Below, piece by piece: positions 3,405-62,347 of a stretch of 64,000 nucleotides of DNA; position 1 is the stretch's first letter; every line of letters starts with the position of its first letter. The notes under the pieces were generated by a model. It saw only the letters and a program-made list of their open reading frames with translations, was not told the DNA's origin and searched no databases. The position numbers and the translations under genes were made by a program. The stretch is from positions 22,206-86,205 of the forward strand of contig CACXXO010000009.1 in NCBI GenBank assembly GCA_902771735.1, in the 5' to 3' direction. Source of the stretch: an uncultured Bacteroidota bacterium. Lineage in GTDB: Bacteria > Bacteroidota > Bacteroidia > Bacteroidales > P3.

Positions 3405-4694
3405 TCAGAAGTTATATTTGACAAGGGCACAAAGACGATGATTGAAGATACCATTGAGGTTGGCATTAGCGGTGCCGTCGGATGCGAGATTGCCATAGTA
3501 GGCAGCGGTGGCTTCATATTCGATACCGAAGTTGAAGGATTCAAGGTTGTAGCTGACCGAGGGGGCAAGACGGACAACACTGTGGAGGTGGGTGAATTCC
3601 TCGCCACCCTTCATGTATATATGGTAACTGTTTGTGGCGGGATCGAGCCAGAGGTCCTCCCCTGCCCCGAGATTCTGCATGTATCCGAGGAAGAGGTTAT
3701 AGCGTACTTTTGAACCGAAAGCAATGTTAATATAGCCGATAGCGGCACGAAGGGGCGCATAGTTCCACGAACCGTCGCTGTTGACGGAGGTGACGCCGTA
3801 GCCCACGAGCTGGTTCAGGTGGCTGGTGTTTTGGGCAAGAAGGGCGCGGAATTTGACGCTCAGATCCTTGGTAACATATTGTGCATAGAGCGTCGGGGTG
3901 AACGAGCTGACGGTTTCGTTGACCTTCTTGGTGACACCACCCACCAAAGCATGGGTGCGAGGGCGAAGGCTCTGTATGTCGACACCTATCTGGGCATACC
4001 AAGGTCCCTGCTTGAAGTTGAATCCAAGGAACACTTCGGGAATCAGTGAGTTGTTGGCGAAGTCTATGCTGTTGGTGCTCGTCGGGTCGCTGGCAGACTT
4101 CGGGCCGTTGTTCATGTATTGCAGCTGCCAAAGCAGCGCGGCGGTGTAGCCGAAAGAACCCAGATACATGGAAGCGCGTACCTGCGGCGTGCGACTGTGG
4201 GGACGGAATGGCGCACCAGCGGCCATACCCAACACCTCGGGCATGATGTCGCCACTCAGAGGGTGCCAGTCCTGACCCACGAGCAATTCCGCATTCCACA
4301 CACTTTGTTCGGCTCTTAGTTTTAAATAGGCCAAACGCAGACGCAACACCATGTTGTTGGTGCCGAAGCCACCGAAGTCGCCTTCCAGCTTTCCACTGCT
4401 CTTCACTTGTCCAAAACTGGGACCTGTGATATTTAAACCAAAACGCGAAGTCAACGCCTGCAGCTGCATCGATGACACAGCGTTCAGGTCCTCACTATGG
4501 TCTTCGTTCCACTTCTCGTCGAAGGGAATCATGTTGTACTCACCACCGACGACAGTATAGGTCTTGCGGCTGTCGAAAGTGAGGTAGTTGCGCACAAAGC
4601 CGTAAAGCTTCACAGATACCTTATTAGTGTCCTGCGCCTGAACAAAAGGCAGCGATACGGAAAGCATCGCTGCCATAAGAACTATTTTCTTCAT
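3405..4694 (-). CDS. Outer-membrane beta-barrel, porin-like (DcaP-like)
   Basis: A 429-residue protein with a clear signal peptide (MKKIVLMAAMLSVSLPFVQAQ) followed by SVKLYGFVRNYLTFDSRKT and many alternating strands rich in aromatic residues, ending in KYNF, an outer-membrane barrel C-terminus. It resembles DcaP-type trimeric porins of Bacteroidota. It probably lets small negatively charged solutes through the outer membrane. The ATG at 4694 overlaps the stop of the upstream inner-membrane transporter by 4 bp (ATGA), which suggests that porin and transporter serve the same substrate. The frame stays open upstream to 4949, but that stretch is a shadow of the transporter gene and has no signal sequence. 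Confidence 0.75.
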   Translation of the reverse strand: MKKIVLMAAMLSVSLPFVQAQDTNKVSVKLYGFVRNYLTFDSRKTYTVVGGEYNMIPFDEKWNEDHSEDLNAVSSMQLQALTSRFGLNITGPSFGQVKSSGKLEGDFGGFGTNNMVLRLRLAYLKLRAEQSVWNAELLVGQDWHPLSGDIMPEVLGMAAGAPFRPHSRTPQVRASMYLGSFGYTAALLWQLQYMNNGPKSASDPTSTNSIDFANNSLIPEVFLGFNFKQGPWYAQIGVDIQSLRPRTHALVGGVTKKVNETVSSFTPTLYAQYVTKDLSVKFRALLAQNTSHLNQLVGYGVTSVNSDGSWNYAPLRAAIGYINIAFGSKVRYNLFLGYMQNLGAGEDLWLDPATNSYHIYMKGGEEFTHLHSVVRLAPSVSYNLESFNFGIEYEATAAYYGNLASDGTANANLNGIFNHRLCALVKYNF

Positions 4695-9693: not shown

Positions 9694-10596
9694 TTAGACT
9701 TTCCAATGCCATTTCACATCTTCACATCGGAACTCCACTTGGCGCTTGCAGTCGGGACATACTGACATGTGTCCAATATAAGAGATGCCCGTTTCCGGGT
9801 CGGGCTTCGATTCAAAATGGATCCATTTCAGTTCATGACTCAATTTCCCACACTCCATACAGAACATACCTCCTCCATTATAATATTGGGTATCAACGTT
9901 CCCCAGCCAAGGTTCTATTTCCTCCCATTCAAACGGAGTGCTACTCGGCGAAAAACAATATCTGCCCCAAACAATAGCATGCCTGGCGATACGGTCCACT
10001 TTCCCATTCGCATTTGTGCGGATATAAAAGACTGAACGCAATATGCTATTTTTATTATCGGGGAAATACCACTCCGTCAACATGCCATATCGCTCACTGG
10101 CTATCAATGACACCTGCCTATCCTCTCCGGGATGGAAAACGCTTGTAAACCATTCATAAGCTTCTTCTTTTCCTTGTCTGCATTTTCTATCCATAAAATT
10201 AACAAGAACAACATTGTCATCAAGCATCGGATAGAAAAGGCCAAAATCTCGTTGTTTGGAAGCTGTGTAAAACGCCTGCTGCGCTTTGCTCAGAAAGGTA
10301 TTCTTTTGTTTTGAAATAACCTTGTGCAAACGAATTGGCTTGGGCAATAGTTGAATATGCATGTCTGGATGGCTTAGTGCCCTATTGCACCATTCCAATG
10401 CTCCTTTCTCATCTTTGTCACAACCAATCCCATAATAAAGACGATAAGCCAAATCAGCCTGAGCCAATAATACATTATAATCTGCTGCTTGCCGAAGCAA
10501 TTCAAGCCCTTTTTTATATTGTCCTATGTTCCTTTGGGGACTATCCAACAAATGACTTGCTTTCACCCAAAGATCTCTCCTATCCGTCTTTTCCAT
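9694..10596 (-). CDS. Sel1-like repeat / zinc-ribbon protein of unknown function
   Basis: About 300 residues with three visible parts. The N-terminal third reads like a Sel1/TPR helical repeat (GLELLRQAADYNVLLAQADL, AYRLYYGIGC). A central region around YTASKQRDFGLFYPMLDDNV suggests a SnoaL/NTF2-like fold. The C-terminus has paired cysteines in FCMECGK and SVCPDCKRQ that would make a zinc ribbon. No signal peptide, so probably cytoplasmic. I chose the ATG at 10596 (MEKTDRRDL) over a TTG at 10608. Last gene of the AT-rich operon behind the leader at 11582-11699. Its base composition is lower in GC than the flanking core genes, which suggests acquisition. Confidence 0.65.
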   Translation of the reverse strand: MEKTDRRDLWVKASHLLDSPQRNIGQYKKGLELLRQAADYNVLLAQADLAYRLYYGIGCDKDEKGALEWCNRALSHPDMHIQLLPKPIRLHKVISKQKNTFLSKAQQAFYTASKQRDFGLFYPMLDDNVVLVNFMDRKCRQGKEEAYEWFTSVFHPGEDRQVSLIASERYGMLTEWYFPDNKNSILRSVFYIRTNANGKVDRIARHAIVWGRYCFSPSSTPFEWEEIEPWLGNVDTQYYNGGGMFCMECGKLSHELKWIHFESKPDPETGISYIGHMSVCPDCKRQVEFRCEDVKWHWKV

Positions 10597-10626
10597 GTTA
10601 TGATACAATTAATTGGATATTCCTCA

Positions 10627-11268
10627 TTAATATCCCATTACGTCATCAACTATGTTTTGAGGATAGTTCATTATTAACACGCTAGGAGTTTCATCTGTCA
10701 TTGCCATAAATGTCCAATTTTTTCCCTTGTTATGAGAGACCCCGAGTGTCAAACTCGGCGATATAGTATGTAAATAAACCAAAGAGTCATTTTTATAGCC
10801 TTCCATCCTTCCGTGAACTCCAAACACGTATAAATAATCCTCATTATATACCACCTTTCTCAGAATATCACCGACATACAAACTAACATATATACCGGCC
10901 TCCTCCAGTTTCGACAACTTTTCATTATGGTCAGCAGAAACTTCAGACAAGAATTCATCTAGAATTTCCTCATCACTATACAACGGATAATACTTCTTAA
11001 AATAAGTTATCGATTCTCTGTAAAAAAATCTTTTCACCTCACTTACATTGCCTTTTATCAAAGCTTGATCATAAGTTTTGTGTTGTGCAATTAAGTTTTC
11101 CTCTGCTTTATTTAAAGGAGAATAATCGGATCCTTCCCCTAATTCCCACCCAGTTGGAACATTCACACCAATACCTGTATCAGTTTCCAAATCTTGTTTT
11201 CCATTGCCACTATTATTGCATGCACTTAGCGACATGAACATTACAAATAAATAGACTATTCTTTTCAT
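10627..11268 (-). CDS. Predicted lipoprotein of unknown function
   Basis: A protein of 213 residues starting MKRIVYLFVMFMSLSACNN, a lipoprotein signal peptide with lipobox LSAC, so probably membrane-anchored in the envelope. The rest shows no motif I recognise; a helical segment with YDQALIKGNVSEVKRFFYRE and a C-terminal strand-rich part (YLYVFGVHGRMEGYKND) are seen. The ATG at 11268 is chosen because it makes the signal peptide; an upstream in-frame start at 11292 would overlap the preceding gene. It lies five bases after the small membrane protein gene, in the same AT-rich operon. Confidence 0.65.
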   Translation of the reverse strand: MKRIVYLFVMFMSLSACNNSGNGKQDLETDTGIGVNVPTGWELGEGSDYSPLNKAEENLIAQHKTYDQALIKGNVSEVKRFFYRESITYFKKYYPLYSDEEILDEFLSEVSADHNEKLSKLEEAGIYVSLYVGDILRKVVYNEDYLYVFGVHGRMEGYKNDSLVYLHTISPSLTLGVSHNKGKNWTFMAMTDETPSVLIMNYPQNIVDDVMGY

Positions 11269-11273
11269 AGTAA

Positions 11274-11456
11274 TTATATAAAGAAAAACCATAGAATACC
11301 TTTAATCTCGGCCCATATTGGACCCAGAAAAACAATCTTCAAAACAGAATCCCATTCTTTACATAAATCAATAAAAAAGATGACAGTCATAATCTGACTA
11401 ACAATCAGGTAACAAACTAATGCAATTCCCCAAAAGGAAGTTTTTTTCTCGCTCAT
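11274..11456 (-). CDS. Small two-helix membrane protein
   Basis: A 60-residue protein with two hydrophobic segments (about residues 9-29 and 38-59) and a charged N-terminus MSEKKTSF. Not recognised. First gene of the AT-rich operon, with the structured element 11582-11699 and a promoter at 11806-11837 upstream on the same strand. The short length lowers confidence, but the tight spacing to the next gene (five bases) and the long organised leader support it. Confidence 0.5.
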   Translation of the reverse strand: MSEKKTSFWGIALVCYLIVSQIMTVIFFIDLCKEWDSVLKIVFLGPIWAEIKGILWFFFI

Positions 11457-11581
11457 AGATTTAGATTTTTTTATTTATATTTGATTTTAATCGGTTTTTT
11501 CAATTATATTTTTAACTCTTCACCTTCTTTTTTTATATAAAAGAAAAAGGACGTGGAATTATTCTTTTGTGCTCCTTATTT
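11457..11581. other. Leader between structured RNA and operon start
   Basis: AT-rich, without an open frame of interest. It holds an imperfect palindrome (about 11522-11551, CCTTCTTTTTTTATATAAAAG core) that could weakly pair. No SD-like purine block directly precedes the ATG at 11456. Confidence 0.4.
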
Positions 11582-11699
11582 GTCGTAGTGGCTCTGGACT
11601 GCCATGTGTATTAATAAGGTGCGAATAATTCACGCCCAAGGCGTGAACTCCCGCGAGCTTATTCTCATACACAATGGAATTGTCCAGATTCCTACGACG
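11582..11699 (-). ncRNA. Rod-shaped structured leader RNA, copy A
   Basis: On the minus strand the 118 bases fold back on themselves. GTCGTAG (11698-11692) pairs with CTACGAC (11588-11582). After an internal loop, TCTGGAC pairs with GTCCAGA, then further paired blocks (ATTCCATTGTGTAT region with ATACACATGGCA) lead to a terminal hairpin TTCACGCC-TTG-GGCGTGAA. The element at 59226-59337 has the same plan and shares CTGG...CCAGAGCC next to the outer stem, plus a TCACG...CGTGA tip. It lies about 100 bases after its promoter and 126 bases before the first gene of the AT-rich operon. It could be a cis-acting leader or a free small RNA; I do not recognise an Rfam family with certainty. Confidence 0.62.
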
Positions 11700-11805
11700 A
11701 GAACTATGGGCGGTTAGCTCAATATGATTGCTCTATCTTTTTTTACATGTTTCTATTTGTTTAAATTGCTACAGCAATAGTTGTTTCCTATTGGTTTCCA
11801 AACTG

Positions 11806-11837
11806 CAAAATTACGAATAAAATTCCAATCCACCAAA
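11806..11837 (-). promoter_or_regulatory. Promoter of the AT-rich operon at 9.7-11.5 kb
   Basis: Minus strand TTTG (11837-11834), 20 bases, then TAATTTTG (11813-11806), one base longer than the usual 19-base spacing. Confidence 0.65.
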
Positions 11838-11931
11838 AAAACTTTGCCACCGGTGGAAAACAGACAACCGTTTCAGGAAAAGGGCATAAAAATGTCAACC
11901 AAAATCAGGAAAAGACAACCAGCGTTTCAGT

Positions 11932-23062: not shown

Positions 23063-23095
23063 TCTTTATTCCACATTCTTTATTTCAAAAAAAAA

Positions 23096-23469
23096 TAGCA
23101 TGGGTCTGTAAGCCGGGTTCTGTCGTGTTCTATCATCAATCTATGACCGCCGTCACCGACGGCCTCTATCAACCTACCCCCCAATAATGCAGGCGAGCCT
23201 GCCCGCTGCCCGAAGGCTTATTGGTATATTTGGTCTTTCAGCCCATGAGGCTTGCCATCGTGCGCGTCACCGCGTCACGTCGTGGGCTCTTACCCCGCGT
23301 TTTCACCCTTGCCTTTTTTATTCTCGAAAGGCGGTTTCTTTTCTGTGGCGCTTTCTGTAGCCCTGCCCTTACGGACAAAACCCCTTCCCGTTAGGAAGCA
23401 TGGTGGCTCGAGCTGCCCGGACTTTCCTCTCGGCATCGCTGCCCAGCGATAGAACGGCCCTTGCTATTT
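23096..23469 (-). ncRNA. rnpB: RNase P RNA (bacterial class A)
   Basis: The minus strand carries the hallmark GAGGAAAGTCCGGGC near the 5' end and AGAACCCGGCTTACAGACCC at the 3' end, with the expected P4-forming halves about 320 bases apart. The ends pair (ATAGCA with TGCTAT), followed by a run of nine T. It processes the 5' ends of tRNA precursors. Ends are given to within a few bases. Confidence 0.94.
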
Positions 23470-43783: not shown

Positions 43784-43857
43784 GGCCTCTTAGCTCAGTT
43801 GGTTAGAGCAGCTGACTCATAATCAGCGGGTCCTTGGTTCGAACCCGAGAGGGGCCA
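43784..43857 (+). tRNA. tRNA with CAT anticodon (Met, or Ile2 read with lysidine)
   Basis: A full cloverleaf: acceptor GGCCTCT pairs with AGGGGCC, the D-arm contains AGCTCAGTTGGTTAGAGC, anticodon loop CTCATAA with CAT at 43818-43820, T-arm GGTTCGAACCC. No CCA is encoded (CTA follows the discriminator A). The acceptor stem resembles that of tRNA-Ile2, so elongator Met and lysidine-modified Ile(CAU) are both possible. Confidence 0.93.
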
Positions 43858-59102: not shown

Positions 59103-59133
59103 TTTGCCGAATGAAATAATTGTCGTAATTTTG
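59103..59133 (+). promoter_or_regulatory. Consensus promoter of the 59.4-62.3 kb operon
   Basis: TTTG (59103-59106), exactly 19 bases, TAATTTTG (59126-59133): the best Bacteroidota promoter in the window. Transcription should start near 59140. Confidence 0.82.
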
Positions 59134-59202: not shown

Positions 59203-59218
59203 AAAGCGTATTCGCTTT
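59203..59218 (+). other. Small hairpin before the leader rod
   Basis: AAAGCG-TATT-CGCTTT, directly upstream of the rod-shaped RNA. Confidence 0.5.
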
Positions 59219-59225
59219 TCTTTTG

Positions 59226-59337
59226 CGTACGGAAATTCTGGTAAAATTTCTTTATCTTTCAGCACAAGGAAAGGGAAACGCTCACGGCACCGTGAGCTTT
59301 CTTGTTTGCTGAAAGGGTTTACCAGAGCCTCCGTACG
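59226..59337 (+). ncRNA. Rod-shaped structured leader RNA, copy B
   Basis: Five nested stems in 112 bases: CGTACGGA/TCCGTACG (59226-33/59330-37), TCTGGTAAA/TTTACCAGA (59237-45/59318-26), CTTTCAGCA/TGCTGAAAG (59256-64/59307-15), CAAGGAAAG/CTTTCTTG (59265-73/59297-304) and GCTCACG/CGTGAGC (59280-86/59291-97). The sequence around the outer stem (CTGG and CCAGAGCC) and the TCACG tip are also found in the 11582-11699 element. It lies between the promoter at 59103-59133 and the first gene at 59409. The outer stem overlaps an alternative terminator-like hairpin. Confidence 0.72.
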
Positions 59338-59362
59338 AACAGAAATAGTTCACGGTTTTTTT
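59331..59362 (+). terminator. Terminator-like hairpin competing with the leader outer stem
   Basis: CCGTACGAAC (59331-59340) can pair with GTTCACGG (59348-59355, two-base bulge) followed by seven T. It uses the same bases as the 3' half of the outer stem of the leader RNA, so only one can form at a time. Confidence 0.55.
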
Positions 59363-59408
59363 ATTGTCAAAACTAACGATAAAAGTATAACTTATAAAAT
59401 ATAAAATT

Positions 59409-59828
59409 ATGGCAACATTTACACCTCGGTTCAATCCCACAGTCTTTCCAGTTGGATATGACATAATCGTACAATGGCTTCGACAAAACCCTCCAGTATG
59501 GATACCCAAACTTGGTAGGCAATCAAACGACAATAGTTTATGTCACTTTTGGTGCTCTGTCACAAATCAAGGCATGATCCGTGTGTCTGCCAATGAAGAT
59601 GGATCTGGTAGTTCTCATGAGTATACAGAGGCAGAATGGACTCGAATCTGCAACATTATGCAATGGGCAATAGATACTTACAGAAATCCAGAGTTCACTT
59701 ATTGGTACAATAATGATCCTCATCGACAAGAAGTTCCACGTGTACCTAATCGCATTTGGGGTCCCAATGTGCCTGCTATTTGTAGAAGTTATAATGAGTA
59801 TCGACTTGCAAACGGAGAAACACTATAA
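59409..59828 (+). CDS. Unknown protein, first gene of the SPFH operon
   Basis: A 139-residue protein, not recognised. It begins MATFTPRFNPTVFPVGYDII and is rich in aromatic residues and Asn (ICNIMQWAIDTYRNPEFTYW), with no signal peptide or membrane helix. AT-rich coding, like the three genes that follow. Five bases separate it from the SPFH gene, and the strong promoter plus leader lies upstream. Confidence 0.6.
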   Translation: MATFTPRFNPTVFPVGYDIIVQWLRQNPPVWIPKLGRQSNDNSLCHFWCSVTNQGMIRVSANEDGSGSSHEYTEAEWTRICNIMQWAIDTYRNPEFTYWYNNDPHRQEVPRVPNRIWGPNVPAICRSYNEYRLANGETL

Positions 59829-59833
59829 ACAAT

Positions 59834-60943
59834 ATGGCAATAATAGACGTAGTCAAATGCGACATGGTAGAGGGGGAAATATGCCAAAAGTTTCCTTCTG
59901 AGAATCTACGCATCGGCACCCAGCTGGTAGTGTACCCGGCGCAAACTGCATTCTTTGTTAAAGGTGGTGCTGTTTGTGATGAATTCACATCGGGAACATA
60001 CACCATCAAGTCTGCTAACATTCCCATCCTACACAAACTAATTAACATTCCTTTTGGTGGAGATACACCATTCAAGGCAGAAGTATGGTTTGTGAATAAA
60101 ATAGCCAAATTGGATTTGCCTTGGGGTACACCTCAACCGATACAGGTAGAAGACCCTAAATATAAAATCATCGTTCCATTACGGGCACATGGTCAATATG
60201 GTATAACGGTGACAAATCCAAGGGCTTTTCTTGAAATGCTTATTGGGAACCTACCATCATTCTCGTCTGATACGATAGAGAGGTATTTTAAGGGCAGATT
60301 GGTGACATTGCTCAATACCGTTATTGCTAATCAGATTACAGAAAAGGAAGTATCTGTTTTGGATATTAATTCCAAACTATTAGAACTGTCCGATGATTGT
60401 GAACAAACCCTCAACAAACAATTTGAAAAATACGGAATCACACTCACGGAATTTTCCATTATGTCAATTACCGTACCACAAGACGACCCAAGCGTTATCC
60501 GACTAAAAGAGGCGAAAGACTTTGCTGCCCGTTTGGCGGTCACAGGAGTCAATGCCTATCAGATGGAACGTAGTTTCGATGTGCTAGAAAAAGCTGCTGG
60601 TAATGAGGGCGCTGGTGGAATGATGGCATCAATGGGCGCAGGCTTGGGTGTTGGTTTTGGTGTGGGTAATACAGTTGGTGGAATGGCAAGCGGTCTTATA
60701 AATACAAACCCAACAACACCTCCACCTATTCCCAATGGCAAATTGTATTATGTTGTAGTGAATGGCGTGCAAATACCAAATCTTTCTGTCGAACAGATAA
60801 AGCAGCAAATCAATCAAGGTCAGATTACCGCTTCAACACTTGTTTGGACGGCGGGAATACCCAATTGGGTTCCACTAACTGCTGTTCCCGAGTTGGCAAA
60901 TCTTGTTAATCAACAAACACCACCACCAATCCCTAATATTTGA
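59834..60943 (+). CDS. SPFH-domain protein with C-terminal GYF_2 domain
   Basis: A 369-residue protein. Residues 1-250 are an SPFH/band 7 domain of the virion-core/YdjI type: EGEICQKFPSENLRIGTQLV, FFVKGGAVCDEFTSGTYTI, LPWGTPQPIQVEDPKYKIIV and LTEFSIMSITVPQDDPSVI. A Gly-rich hinge follows, and the last ~60 residues (YYVVVNGVQIPNLSVEQIKQ, LVWTAGIPNWVPLTAVPEL) form a GYF_2 domain. SPFH proteins build membrane-microdomain scaffolds and the YdjI type is linked to membrane stress (Psp-like) systems. It probably acts at the inner membrane with the neighbouring gene products. Confidence 0.8.
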   Translation: MAIIDVVKCDMVEGEICQKFPSENLRIGTQLVVYPAQTAFFVKGGAVCDEFTSGTYTIKSANIPILHKLINIPFGGDTPFKAEVWFVNKIAKLDLPWGTPQPIQVEDPKYKIIVPLRAHGQYGITVTNPRAFLEMLIGNLPSFSSDTIERYFKGRLVTLLNTVIANQITEKEVSVLDINSKLLELSDDCEQTLNKQFEKYGITLTEFSIMSITVPQDDPSVIRLKEAKDFAARLAVTGVNAYQMERSFDVLEKAAGNEGAGGMMASMGAGLGVGFGVGNTVGGMASGLINTNPTTPPPIPNGKLYYVVVNGVQIPNLSVEQIKQQINQGQITASTLVWTAGIPNWVPLTAVPELANLVNQQTPPPIPNI

Positions 60944-60947
60944 TGCG

Positions 60948-61292
60948 ATGAAGAAAACTACTGTTTATATTGGATTGTCACTTCTGGCAATAAATATCCT
61001 TTGTTGGCTGTTGCTTTCAAGCTATCATCCATTCAACATGATGGTCAACAGTATTGTGATTGTTGTAACAACCGTTATGATATGGTTACTTTGGATGACG
61101 AAACAAAAAACAGCATTTGCCATATCATTGTCGTTTATCTATTCATTCATAGGCATTGTTCAGATAGTCTTAGGTTGTATGTCAACCGAGTCTATTAAAG
61201 ACAATTGGCGAATTCTGACGATACTAGGCCTACTGGCTTTTGAAATAATCCTGCTCATTATCGTAAATGCAGTTTCTAAAAACGTAAAATAA
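60948..61292 (+). CDS. Small four-helix membrane protein
   Basis: A 114-residue protein with four hydrophobic segments (about 5-25, 31-50, 56-77 and 89-110). Unrecognised. The ATG at 60948 (MKKTTVYIGLSL) is chosen; an in-frame ATG at 60903 would overlap the SPFH gene. It follows that gene by four bases and may be the membrane anchor for the SPFH scaffold; this is inference. Confidence 0.65.
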   Translation: MKKTTVYIGLSLLAINILCWLLLSSYHPFNMMVNSIVIVVTTVMIWLLWMTKQKTAFAISLSFIYSFIGIVQIVLGCMSTESIKDNWRILTILGLLAFEIILLIIVNAVSKNVK

Positions 61293-61300
61293 AGTATATT

Positions 61301-62347
61301 ATGAAAGCATTAACATGTGAAATGTGTGGTAGCACAAATTTAGTCAAGAAAGATGGCGTATTTGTATGCCAGTCTTGTGGCACTCAGTATTCCGTTGAGG
61401 AAGCCAAAAAGATGATGGTTGAAGGTACTGTTGATGTCAAGGGTACCGTAAAAGTTGACACGTCTGATGAGCTTAACAATCTATATGAGATTGCTCGCCG
61501 AGCAAAAGATAGTGGAAACTTTGAAAATGCGGCCAAGTATTATGATATGATACTTGCAAAAGACCCACAAAGTTGGGAAGCCAACTTCTATGTTCCTTAT
61601 GGGAGAATAATGTCATGCAAAAGTGAAGAAGTAAAGACGTGTTCCATAAGTCTAAATAATAGTCTTGCTTTTATTGTTCAGTTAGTTCGTGATGATATGA
61701 CATCACAAGATGAACAGAAAAACATTCTTTTAGAAATTGAGAAAAGATTAACAGAAGCTGAAAAAGCAGTGTCAAATAAAGCCATAAAACTTCTCAAAGT
61801 GGACGAATGTATGAATTACTACGAGGCTCAAAGTGAGGTTTTTAGAATACTGTATGGATTTGGCGATTGTTTAGAAGCATGTTTCGGAGAAAAATATTCA
61901 GAAATAGCCGTCCGTATATGGAAATATGTAATAGAATATGAAACAAGATGTTTTGTTAATAATAAGTATGTAAGAATAGGAACATATTTTGAAAACAAAG
62001 TAAAGAAACACATCAGTGAATATGAAGAAAAAATTCGAAAATATGATAGTAGTTATCAGCCACAGCTAAAATCTTCTGAAGGCTGTTATATTGCCACTGC
62101 CGTGTATGGCTCATACGACTGCCCACAAGTATGGACTCTCCGTCGTTACAGGGACTATTCTCTTGCAAAGACATGGTATGGTCGCAGTTTTATCCGCACA
62201 TACTATGCAATAAGTCCCACATTGGTAAAATGGTTTGGCCATACACAACTGTTTCAATCCATTGGAAGAAATCTTCTCGACAAAAAAGTGCAGCAACTAA
62301 ACGCCAATGGTGTGGAAAACACTCGATATTACGACAAGCAGTGGTAA
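61301..62347 (+). CDS. Zinc-ribbon protein with CFI-box C-terminal domain
   Basis: A 348-residue protein. The N-terminal zinc ribbon has C6/C9/C23/C26 (TCEMCGSTNLVKKDG, FVCQSCGTQY), followed by a coiled or TPR-like helix set (EIARRAKDSGNFENAAKYYD) and a central helical region. The C-terminal part (GCYIATAVYGSYDCPQVWTL, RRYRDYSLAKTWYGRSFIR, YYAISPTLVKWFG) matches the CFI-box C-terminal domain, whose function is unknown. Zinc ribbons of this sort often accompany SPFH/GYF_2 proteins. Last gene of the operon, with a hairpin after the stop. Confidence 0.72.
   Translation: MKALTCEMCGSTNLVKKDGVFVCQSCGTQYSVEEAKKMMVEGTVDVKGTVKVDTSDELNNLYEIARRAKDSGNFENAAKYYDMILAKDPQSWEANFYVPYGRIMSCKSEEVKTCSISLNNSLAFIVQLVRDDMTSQDEQKNILLEIEKRLTEAEKAVSNKAIKLLKVDECMNYYEAQSEVFRILYGFGDCLEACFGEKYSEIAVRIWKYVIEYETRCFVNNKYVRIGTYFENKVKKHISEYEEKIRKYDSSYQPQLKSSEGCYIATAVYGSYDCPQVWTLRRYRDYSLAKTWYGRSFIRTYYAISPTLVKWFGHTQLFQSIGRNLLDKKVQQLNANGVENTRYYDKQW

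Follow-up and report, generated by a model that had tools for sequence, protein, structure and literature searches.

The window analysed here, a stretch of 64,000 nt from an uncultured Bacteroidales genome (assembly GCA_902771735.1, contig CACXXO010000009.1, positions 22,206 to 86,205), carries two long rod-shaped elements, each located ahead of a set of AT-rich genes (table 1). Both rods fold where the initial annotation had placed them: element 1 reaches -55.4 kcal/mol on the minus strand (z -8.43) and element 2 reaches -50.6 kcal/mol on the plus strand (z -7.51), with none of 200 shuffles as stable in either case. The opposite strands of both elements fold nearly as well (z -7.76 and -7.31, respectively), and so the sense strand is not given by folding alone. 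The proposed common sequence pattern can be read directly in both elements, which have in common CTGG, CCAGAGCC and a TCACG/CGTGA tip. A TAATTTTG box precedes each rod, at distances roughly matching the 85-100 bases first suggested; we take the box of element 2 to be a Bacteroidota-type -7 promoter box. Around the box of element 1, some 39 bases (11802-11840, minus strand) recur widely in the same and related genomes at up to 95% identity, and this stretch reads as a repeated promoter sequence.

The genes behind the elements are indeed AT-rich, with a GC content of 38.3% and 39.2% against 53.0% for the window. The zinc-ribbon products that had been ascribed to both operons are weakly supported, by one match in 61301-62347 that falls under the Pfam curated cut-off and by one CxxC...CxxC pair spotted by eye in 9694-10608. 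Elsewhere in the window, the sole Rfam matches at gathering score are an RNase P class A RNA (23093-23465, minus) and a tRNA (43784-43857, plus).

Table 1. Features of the two elements and of the genes behind them, in window coordinates.
Feature	Position	Strand	Basis or remark
Element 1, rod	11582-11699	minus	fold; model matches (R1 at 11542-11721)
Element 1, full conserved unit	11722-11541	minus	
Element 1, TAATTTTG promoter box	11806-11813	minus	read in sequence; about 107 nt ahead of rod
Element 1, mini-ORF ATG TAA	11743-11748	minus	57 nt past box, beyond the usual 25
Element 1, alternative hairpin A	11644-11721	minus	folding
Element 1, alternative hairpin B	11550-11637	minus	folding
Element 1, U-rich run TTTTTCTTTT behind hairpin B	11539-11548	minus	read in sequence
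Genes behind element 1: 60-aa membrane peptide, 221-aa lipoprotein-like (both by eye), 304-aa with weak Sel1 match	9694-11456	minus	
Element 2, rod, helices P1-P4	59226-59337	plus	fold; covariation across family
Element 2, full conserved unit	59203-59364	plus	
Element 2, TAATTTTG promoter box	59126-59133	plus	read in sequence; about 93 nt ahead of rod
Element 2, mini-ORF ATG GCA TAA	59159-59167	plus	25 nt past box
Element 2, 5' strand (local hairpin SL1; 5' arm of hairpin A)	59203-59225	plus	folds; AR pairing count
Element 2, alternative hairpin A; apex X, loop CUGGUAA	59205-59282	plus	folding, covariation
Element 2, alternative hairpin B (putative terminator stem T, apex Y; takes rod's 3' strand)	59289-59355	plus	folding, covariation
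Element 2, U-run behind hairpin B	59356-59362	plus	read in sequence
Operon behind element 2: 139-aa unknown, SPFH/Band7 + GYF_2, membrane protein, zinc-ribbon/TPR/CFI-box-CTERM	59409-62347	plus	

BLAST searches with element 2 retrieved copies in 27 of 61 genomes, its own included and all of the same genus, the closest other copy in its own genome being 85% identical. With element 1, full-length relatives were found in some genomes (the tally of 23 of 61 includes the repeated promoter stretch), and in its own genome it retrieved only itself. When the two sets are aligned separately, compensatory changes are found in 18 of the 26 predicted pairs for element 2 and in 16 of 36 for element 1. A covariance model built solely from element 2 and its relatives (R1) also matches element 1, at 26.5 bits (E 0.0015; 0.0077 in a larger search), in line with the original suggestion of one RNA family. 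Of the 11 relatives that BLAST gave for element 1, R1 recovers 7 with an E-value no higher than 0.1 and misses 4. A second model (R2), built from 100 copies with both elements among them, scores element 1, a member of its training set, at 85.4 bits. The helix order is the same in both elements for both of the folds described below, which supports this reading, and we take elements 1 and 2 to belong to one family.

Alignment A1 holds 32 of the 33 BLAST copies, L004 being excluded as near others. The larger alignment, A4, has 100 rows drawn from 103 model matches and four BLAST relatives of element 1; absent from it are four weak wrong-strand rows (E 0.038-0.042), L252 (the same letters as another row), L152 (the same place as L211) and L201. 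A separate scan used 97 rows with L201 included, while L204, L206 and L207 lay outside the searched set. As the regions were hand-picked from R1 match lists, they are not a random sample.

At gathering score, a search of Rfam with the window and 20 further loci returned no match for the leader copies, and permissive searches with four copies gave only chance-level matches at the window elements. The tested copies thus match no known Rfam family, a point that the initial annotation had put forward for checking. A literature search over titles and the openings of abstracts gave no description of the family, which may nevertheless stand as an unnamed or undeposited motif in earlier RNA surveys; one survey of 2017 reportedly lists 224 candidate RNAs, and a human-microbiome survey is said to have produced thousands of candidate structured RNAs.

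The distribution of R1 matches extends well outside the genus. At the family level 147 of 190 genomes and 11 of 12 genera have a match (E 0.001), at the order level 124 of 393 genomes and 77 of 206 genera (E 0.01), and at the phylum level 29 of 395 genomes and 14 of 171 genera (E 0.01), all of these being lower bounds owing to strict filters and to the number of candidates scored in each genome, 15 in the family search and 7 in the order and phylum searches. The phylum-level matches come mainly from other families of the class, with one genome labelled as of the same phylum only. Using laxer filters, R2 matches 27 of 37 genomes in all, among the matches listed, and all 23 same-genus genomes (own included), which have 2-29 matches each among those listed, these copy numbers being matches at E 0.01 or better, uninspected individually. 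The genome of the window has 10 copies at E <1e-4 by R2, an eleventh row being the reverse strand of element 2. Carriers that could be named are uncultured Bacteroidales, many of ruminant origin going by titles. BLAST matches were also found on plasmids of Chryseobacterium shandongense (69% identity) and Rhizosphaericola mali (80% identity over 79% of the query). No copy was found in viral contigs searched with two exact patterns, and a phage search with one leader copy gave a single 45-base match.

Copies may also lie close together. In the window's own genome (G000, contig C7), two diverged copies face each other 5 kb apart (156909-157119, plus; 162145-162311, minus), with a BspA-like gene, a ClpP-like gene and a lipoprotein, named by eye, between them. 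Region L220 has tandem copies at 2212-2378 and 4347-4506, about 2 kb apart, each with its own gene behind it.

The conserved unit exceeds the rod: it starts with a 5' strand about 20 nt ahead of it and runs on to a complementary strand and a U-run behind it. A scan of the 100 copies in A4 for antiparallel helices returned, in rank order, P1, P2, P3, T, P4 and AR. P4 is the apical hairpin of the rod; in T, the strand immediately ahead of the U-run pairs with the apical 3' strand of the rod, and in AR, the 5' strand of the rod pairs with the 5' strand of the leader. T and P4 occupy one strand and are mutually exclusive. Thus, the initial annotation had the rod right, but it described a shorter unit and only one of two conserved folds.

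Across the 100 copies, 89.7% of the rod's cells are paired and 30 of its 34 pairs have changed on both sides. Covariation, which here counts sequences rather than events, is set against shuffles that ignore relatedness, and is flattered because helices were picked and tested on the same alignment, is 0.584 for the rod (0.185 shuffled, at most 0.108 slid) and 0.323 for the alternative fold overall (0.183 shuffled, at most 0.124 slid), with values of 0.379 for T (0.202 and at most 0.184), 0.326 for AR (0.183 and at most 0.120), 0.237 for X (0.127 and at most 0.106) and 0.272 for Y (0.204 and at most 0.104), none of these four helices being reached by any of 500 shuffles. The signal of T may be partly indirect, since it shares a strand with P4. 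By the count of doubly changed pairs, AR and Y do no better than shuffles, 239 and 448 of 500 reaching them, respectively. Covarying pairs, the check once proposed for this family, are therefore present both in the two separate sets and across the 100 copies. With the helices chosen on the alignment that tests them, the leader has two exclusive conserved structures, one of which ends in a putative terminator stem; straight behind this stem lies a U-run, at least four consecutive U within the last 14 nt, in 94 of the 100 copies. Across the seven best-ranked helices there are 370 G-U against 106 A-C opposites (a count with no composition control), an excess that points to an RNA of the reported strand; 237 of the 370 sit in T and P4, with their shared strand, and P2 shows no excess (6 versus 8).

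Folding calculations are consistent with both structures. Under a penalty on rod pairing, T has 6 or more pairs and AR 8 or more in every one of the 100 copies, with X formed in 84 and Y in 99. The mean energy of the twin hairpin (A + B) is -48.2 versus -55.1 for the rod, with a median difference of 7.8. Folded alone, the 5' half has a mean z of -2.63 (below -2 in 70 of 100 copies) and the 3' half of -4.57 (below -2 in 99), and without the 5' strand or the pre-U strand the halves lose this stability (mean z +0.73 and +0.07 over 100 copies), so the outer strands appear to exist for the self-complementarity of the halves. In element 2, hairpins A and B have z -4.84 and -4.52 (-3.9 and -3.7 with other ends and fewer shuffles); in element 1 the values are -2.41 and -6.15 (-1.6 and -5.6), hairpin A of element 1 being the weakest of the four half-folds.

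In the minimum-energy folds of growing prefixes, hairpin A is present in all 100 copies once the 5' half is out, still in 99 with the second strand of P4 out, and in 3 with the second strand of P3 out. At full length, P4, P3 and P2 are found in 96 of 100 copies and T in 4. Hairpin A is thus calculated to form first and, in most copies, to be displaced later by the rod. Given that the rod is the equilibrium minimum in 96 of 100 copies, read-through would be expected at equilibrium; for termination to occur, kinetics (fast elongation) or a factor holding hairpin A would have to come into play. In element 2, SL1 (59203-59218) and the apical hairpin P4 (59280-59297) each have a T-rich tract behind them and score as terminator-like, and they may be further stop points (possible pause or early stop sites).

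The placement of the family is that of a 5' leader, as the postulated link with downstream genes would have it. Of 135 copies, 121 have their first gene of at least 90 aa on the same strand and 11 on the opposite strand, with none found in 3; the median distance is 51 nt, genes being called by a simple longest-ORF rule and the counts including related genomes. In the 130 nt upstream, the promoter box TAnnTTTG is found in 43 of 61 copies from the genus, where shuffles average 3.7, and in 53 of 72 other copies, against 8.4 when shuffled. Ahead of the structure there is often a mini-ORF, an AUG followed by a stop at once or after one codon, no more than 75 nt away and with a varying middle codon. 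Among same-genus copies 46 of 61 have it, against 13.8 in shuffles (sd 3.1), and among the others 29 of 72, against 15.4 (sd 3.8), mini-ORF and box counts both taking in related genomes with relatedness uncontrolled. Judged from the letters, the leader accordingly lies between a promoter and the first gene of the same transcript. In the 51 copies with both box and mini-ORF, the median distance from box to AUG is 25 nt, with 27 at 24-26 and the others at 2-59. Transcription starts about 7 nt past a -7 box; if so here, an AUG at 25 nt implies a 5' UTR of about 18 nt. This is near the 23 nt reported as usual for Bacteroides thetaiotaomicron (PMC7366714). The mini-ORF AUG lies about 28-46 nt ahead of the structured region (10th-90th percentile of 78). 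The short upstream ORF is conserved, as in leader-peptide attenuators, but no regulatory codons were found at the switching helices; with 0-1 sense codons and an AUG so far ahead, there is no run of regulatory codons for ribosome stalling.

The genes behind the leader are diverse. After removal of near-duplicates the 121 first genes came down to 118 and, with 11 more near-duplicates out, to 107, which were scanned cut at 380 aa, as pooled unrelated proteins rather than as an alignment of homologues. They match 98 Pfam families, none with more than 9 members, the commonest being BspA-type LRR (9) and TonB plug (5); among the PADLOC models with a match are those of type I restriction, ZorA and reverse-transcriptase families. 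Surface, secreted, restriction and defence genes are represented, with no shared function. Given this diversity we reject zinc-ribbon operons as the common target, and the earlier idea that the element marks these or another single type of operon is not supported. The 1.5 kb downstream average 38.7% GC (98 copies). Taken together, the copies make up a set of accessory genes that spans multiple operons.

In L171, from a genome of another class, a reverse transcriptase-like gene (97-1053, minus) lies 447 nt behind a leader copy. In L199, a ZorA-like gene of Zorya defence (655-1794, plus) stands directly behind the leader, a by-eye assignment that leans on PADLOC ZorA matches among the scanned members, the matching member not being named. 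In seven regions from other families of the class (L172, L175, L176, L177, L178, L181, L185), a small opposite-strand gene, helix-turn-helix-like by eye in several, often lies just upstream of the leader, and a TonB-receptor-like gene often lies downstream.

The comparisons support well a real and widespread family of leader RNAs, one that seems to be uncatalogued and has two conserved folds that exclude each other. At the level of sequence, comparison of the copies shows the family, its leader position and the conservation of both folds. We put forward, as the likely function, that each element is a cis-acting transcription attenuator and that the two are members of a single RNA family spanning the Bacteroidota. 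Four strands would pair in two alternative ways. In the first state, the rod (P1-P2-P3-P4) would leave the pre-U-run strand free and RNA polymerase would continue into the operon. In the second, the 5' half would fold into hairpin A, with apex X, and the 3' half into hairpin B, with apex Y; hairpin B and the U-run would then constitute an intrinsic terminator. We infer, in other words, that the rod stands for read-through and hairpin B for termination. The two strands that make up P2 are also the loops of X and Y, and so a loop-loop kiss may form in the twin-hairpin state. Which state is taken would depend on some factor that engages the 5' half as it emerges; this may be a ribosome at the mini-ORF or a protein bound to X/Y.

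A gene for a small RNA would also account for a strong terminal hairpin with a U-run and for the multiple copies: transcription would normally end at the U-run, a 160-220 nt RNA would act in trans, and the downstream gene would be incidental. We consider this quite unlikely, as the same-strand gene behind 121 of 135 copies, at a median of 51 nt, would hardly leave that gene space for its own promoter of the kind observed, and the variable P1 and P3 stems speak against shared targets. A role at the DNA level, as a mobile repeat or cruciform recombination site marking insertion points of accessory operons, is highly improbable in our view. Many copies per genome, AT-rich and variable cargo, and the closeness of several matches to contig ends (no more than a few hundred bases) would fit, but the G-U bias of one strand (370 versus 106), the conserved promoter, the single orientation relative to genes in 121 of 135 copies and the divergence of copies within the own genome (by BLAST, element 1 finds only itself and the next best for element 2 is 85%) argue against it. 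Attenuators of the pT181 kind are controlled by an antisense RNA. Here a counter-transcript might kiss the X or Y loop and shift the fold, which the X loop of about 7 nt, complementary to the Y loop, would allow. We hold such control to be very improbable; the enrichment of opposite-strand promoter boxes shortly downstream is mild, at 19 of 100 versus 11.2 in simple shuffles.

The rod might instead be a processive antitermination element, put- or EAR-like, acting via a factor or on RNA polymerase for full transcription of long AT-rich operons, the terminator being the first gate only. We regard this as unlikely. Targets do include surface-protein, polysaccharide (by eye) and restriction operons, of the kind reported to be served by RfaH, LoaP and UpxY (PMC7819879), and 12 of 13 same-genus genomes of at least 95% completeness have 2-3 NusG-type genes; however, NusG copy number does not visibly track the element in this small sample, where one genome (G028) has 2 NusG and no R1 match, a comparison limited by R1 misses (G015 has none by R1 and 9 by R2), and the conserved 5' strand (AR) and the X/Y pairings would go unexplained. 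Overall, NusG-type genes are found in 54 of 61 genomes, often 2-3 in each. The window's own assembly, 96% complete, has no NusG-domain match, probably an assembly gap. In region L294, from a same-genus genome, a NusG-type gene (1030-1548) lies about 3 kb upstream of a leader at 4181 (plus), with other genes between.

If the elements are attenuators, they offer a testable handle on how Bacteroidota control accessory genes. We know of no common regulator for the operons that the family connects, those for surface proteins, polysaccharides, restriction and other defence. With at least 29 matches in one genome it would be a very abundant leader RNA, of which no tested copy matches Rfam 15, and it seems to provide a case from nature of an RNA whose strands are each under selection for pairing with two partners. 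A bolder version, which we find rather doubtful, is a phylum-wide switch gating the accessory genome, in which ribosome occupancy of the start-stop ORF sets read-through versus termination co-transcriptionally. If true, the translation state of the cell would decide which horizontally exchanged operons are expressed, and up to some 29 operons per cell (surface display, restriction, defence) would share one four-strand leader.

Flavo-1 (RF01705) is likewise a computationally found structured RNA, widespread in Flavobacteriaceae. The scanned leader copies give no match to it; moreover, Flavo-1 matches are reported equally sense and antisense to transcripts (PMC9723704), which sets Flavo-1 apart from the present family. 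Leaders of Bacteroides capsule operons that depend on UpxY undergo premature termination in the 5' leader (PMC7819879), and they resemble our proposal in belonging to Bacteroidales, in serving accessory surface loci and in that termination. In contrast, upxY opens the capsule operons, and here no such gene catches the eye in the list of first genes or in the 25 commonest Pfam families; a shared leader structure, as found here, is not described for UpxY leaders in the available text of that report.

The EAR/epsC, JUMPstart and put RNAs resemble the present family as structured leaders ahead of long operons, and EAR and put RNAs act by antitermination. The tested copies here are without an Rfam match, while epsC and JUMPstart are Rfam families according to a table in PMC2864571, and the core feature here is a conserved alternative terminator-like fold. 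Leader-peptide attenuators have in common with our elements a short ORF soon after the promoter, followed by an alternative terminator; here, in contrast, 0-1 sense codons follow the AUG, the codon varies, and the AUG lies about 28-46 nt ahead of the structure. In design the family also resembles terminator/antiterminator attenuators and transcriptional riboswitches of the strand-displacement type, with exclusive helices in a 5' leader and one terminator-like hairpin with a U-run. The present family differs from them in being without a known aptamer or ligand and without a single downstream pathway; moreover, both halves of its long rod are self-complementary, and genomes of the genus have 2-29 matches each, among the matches listed.
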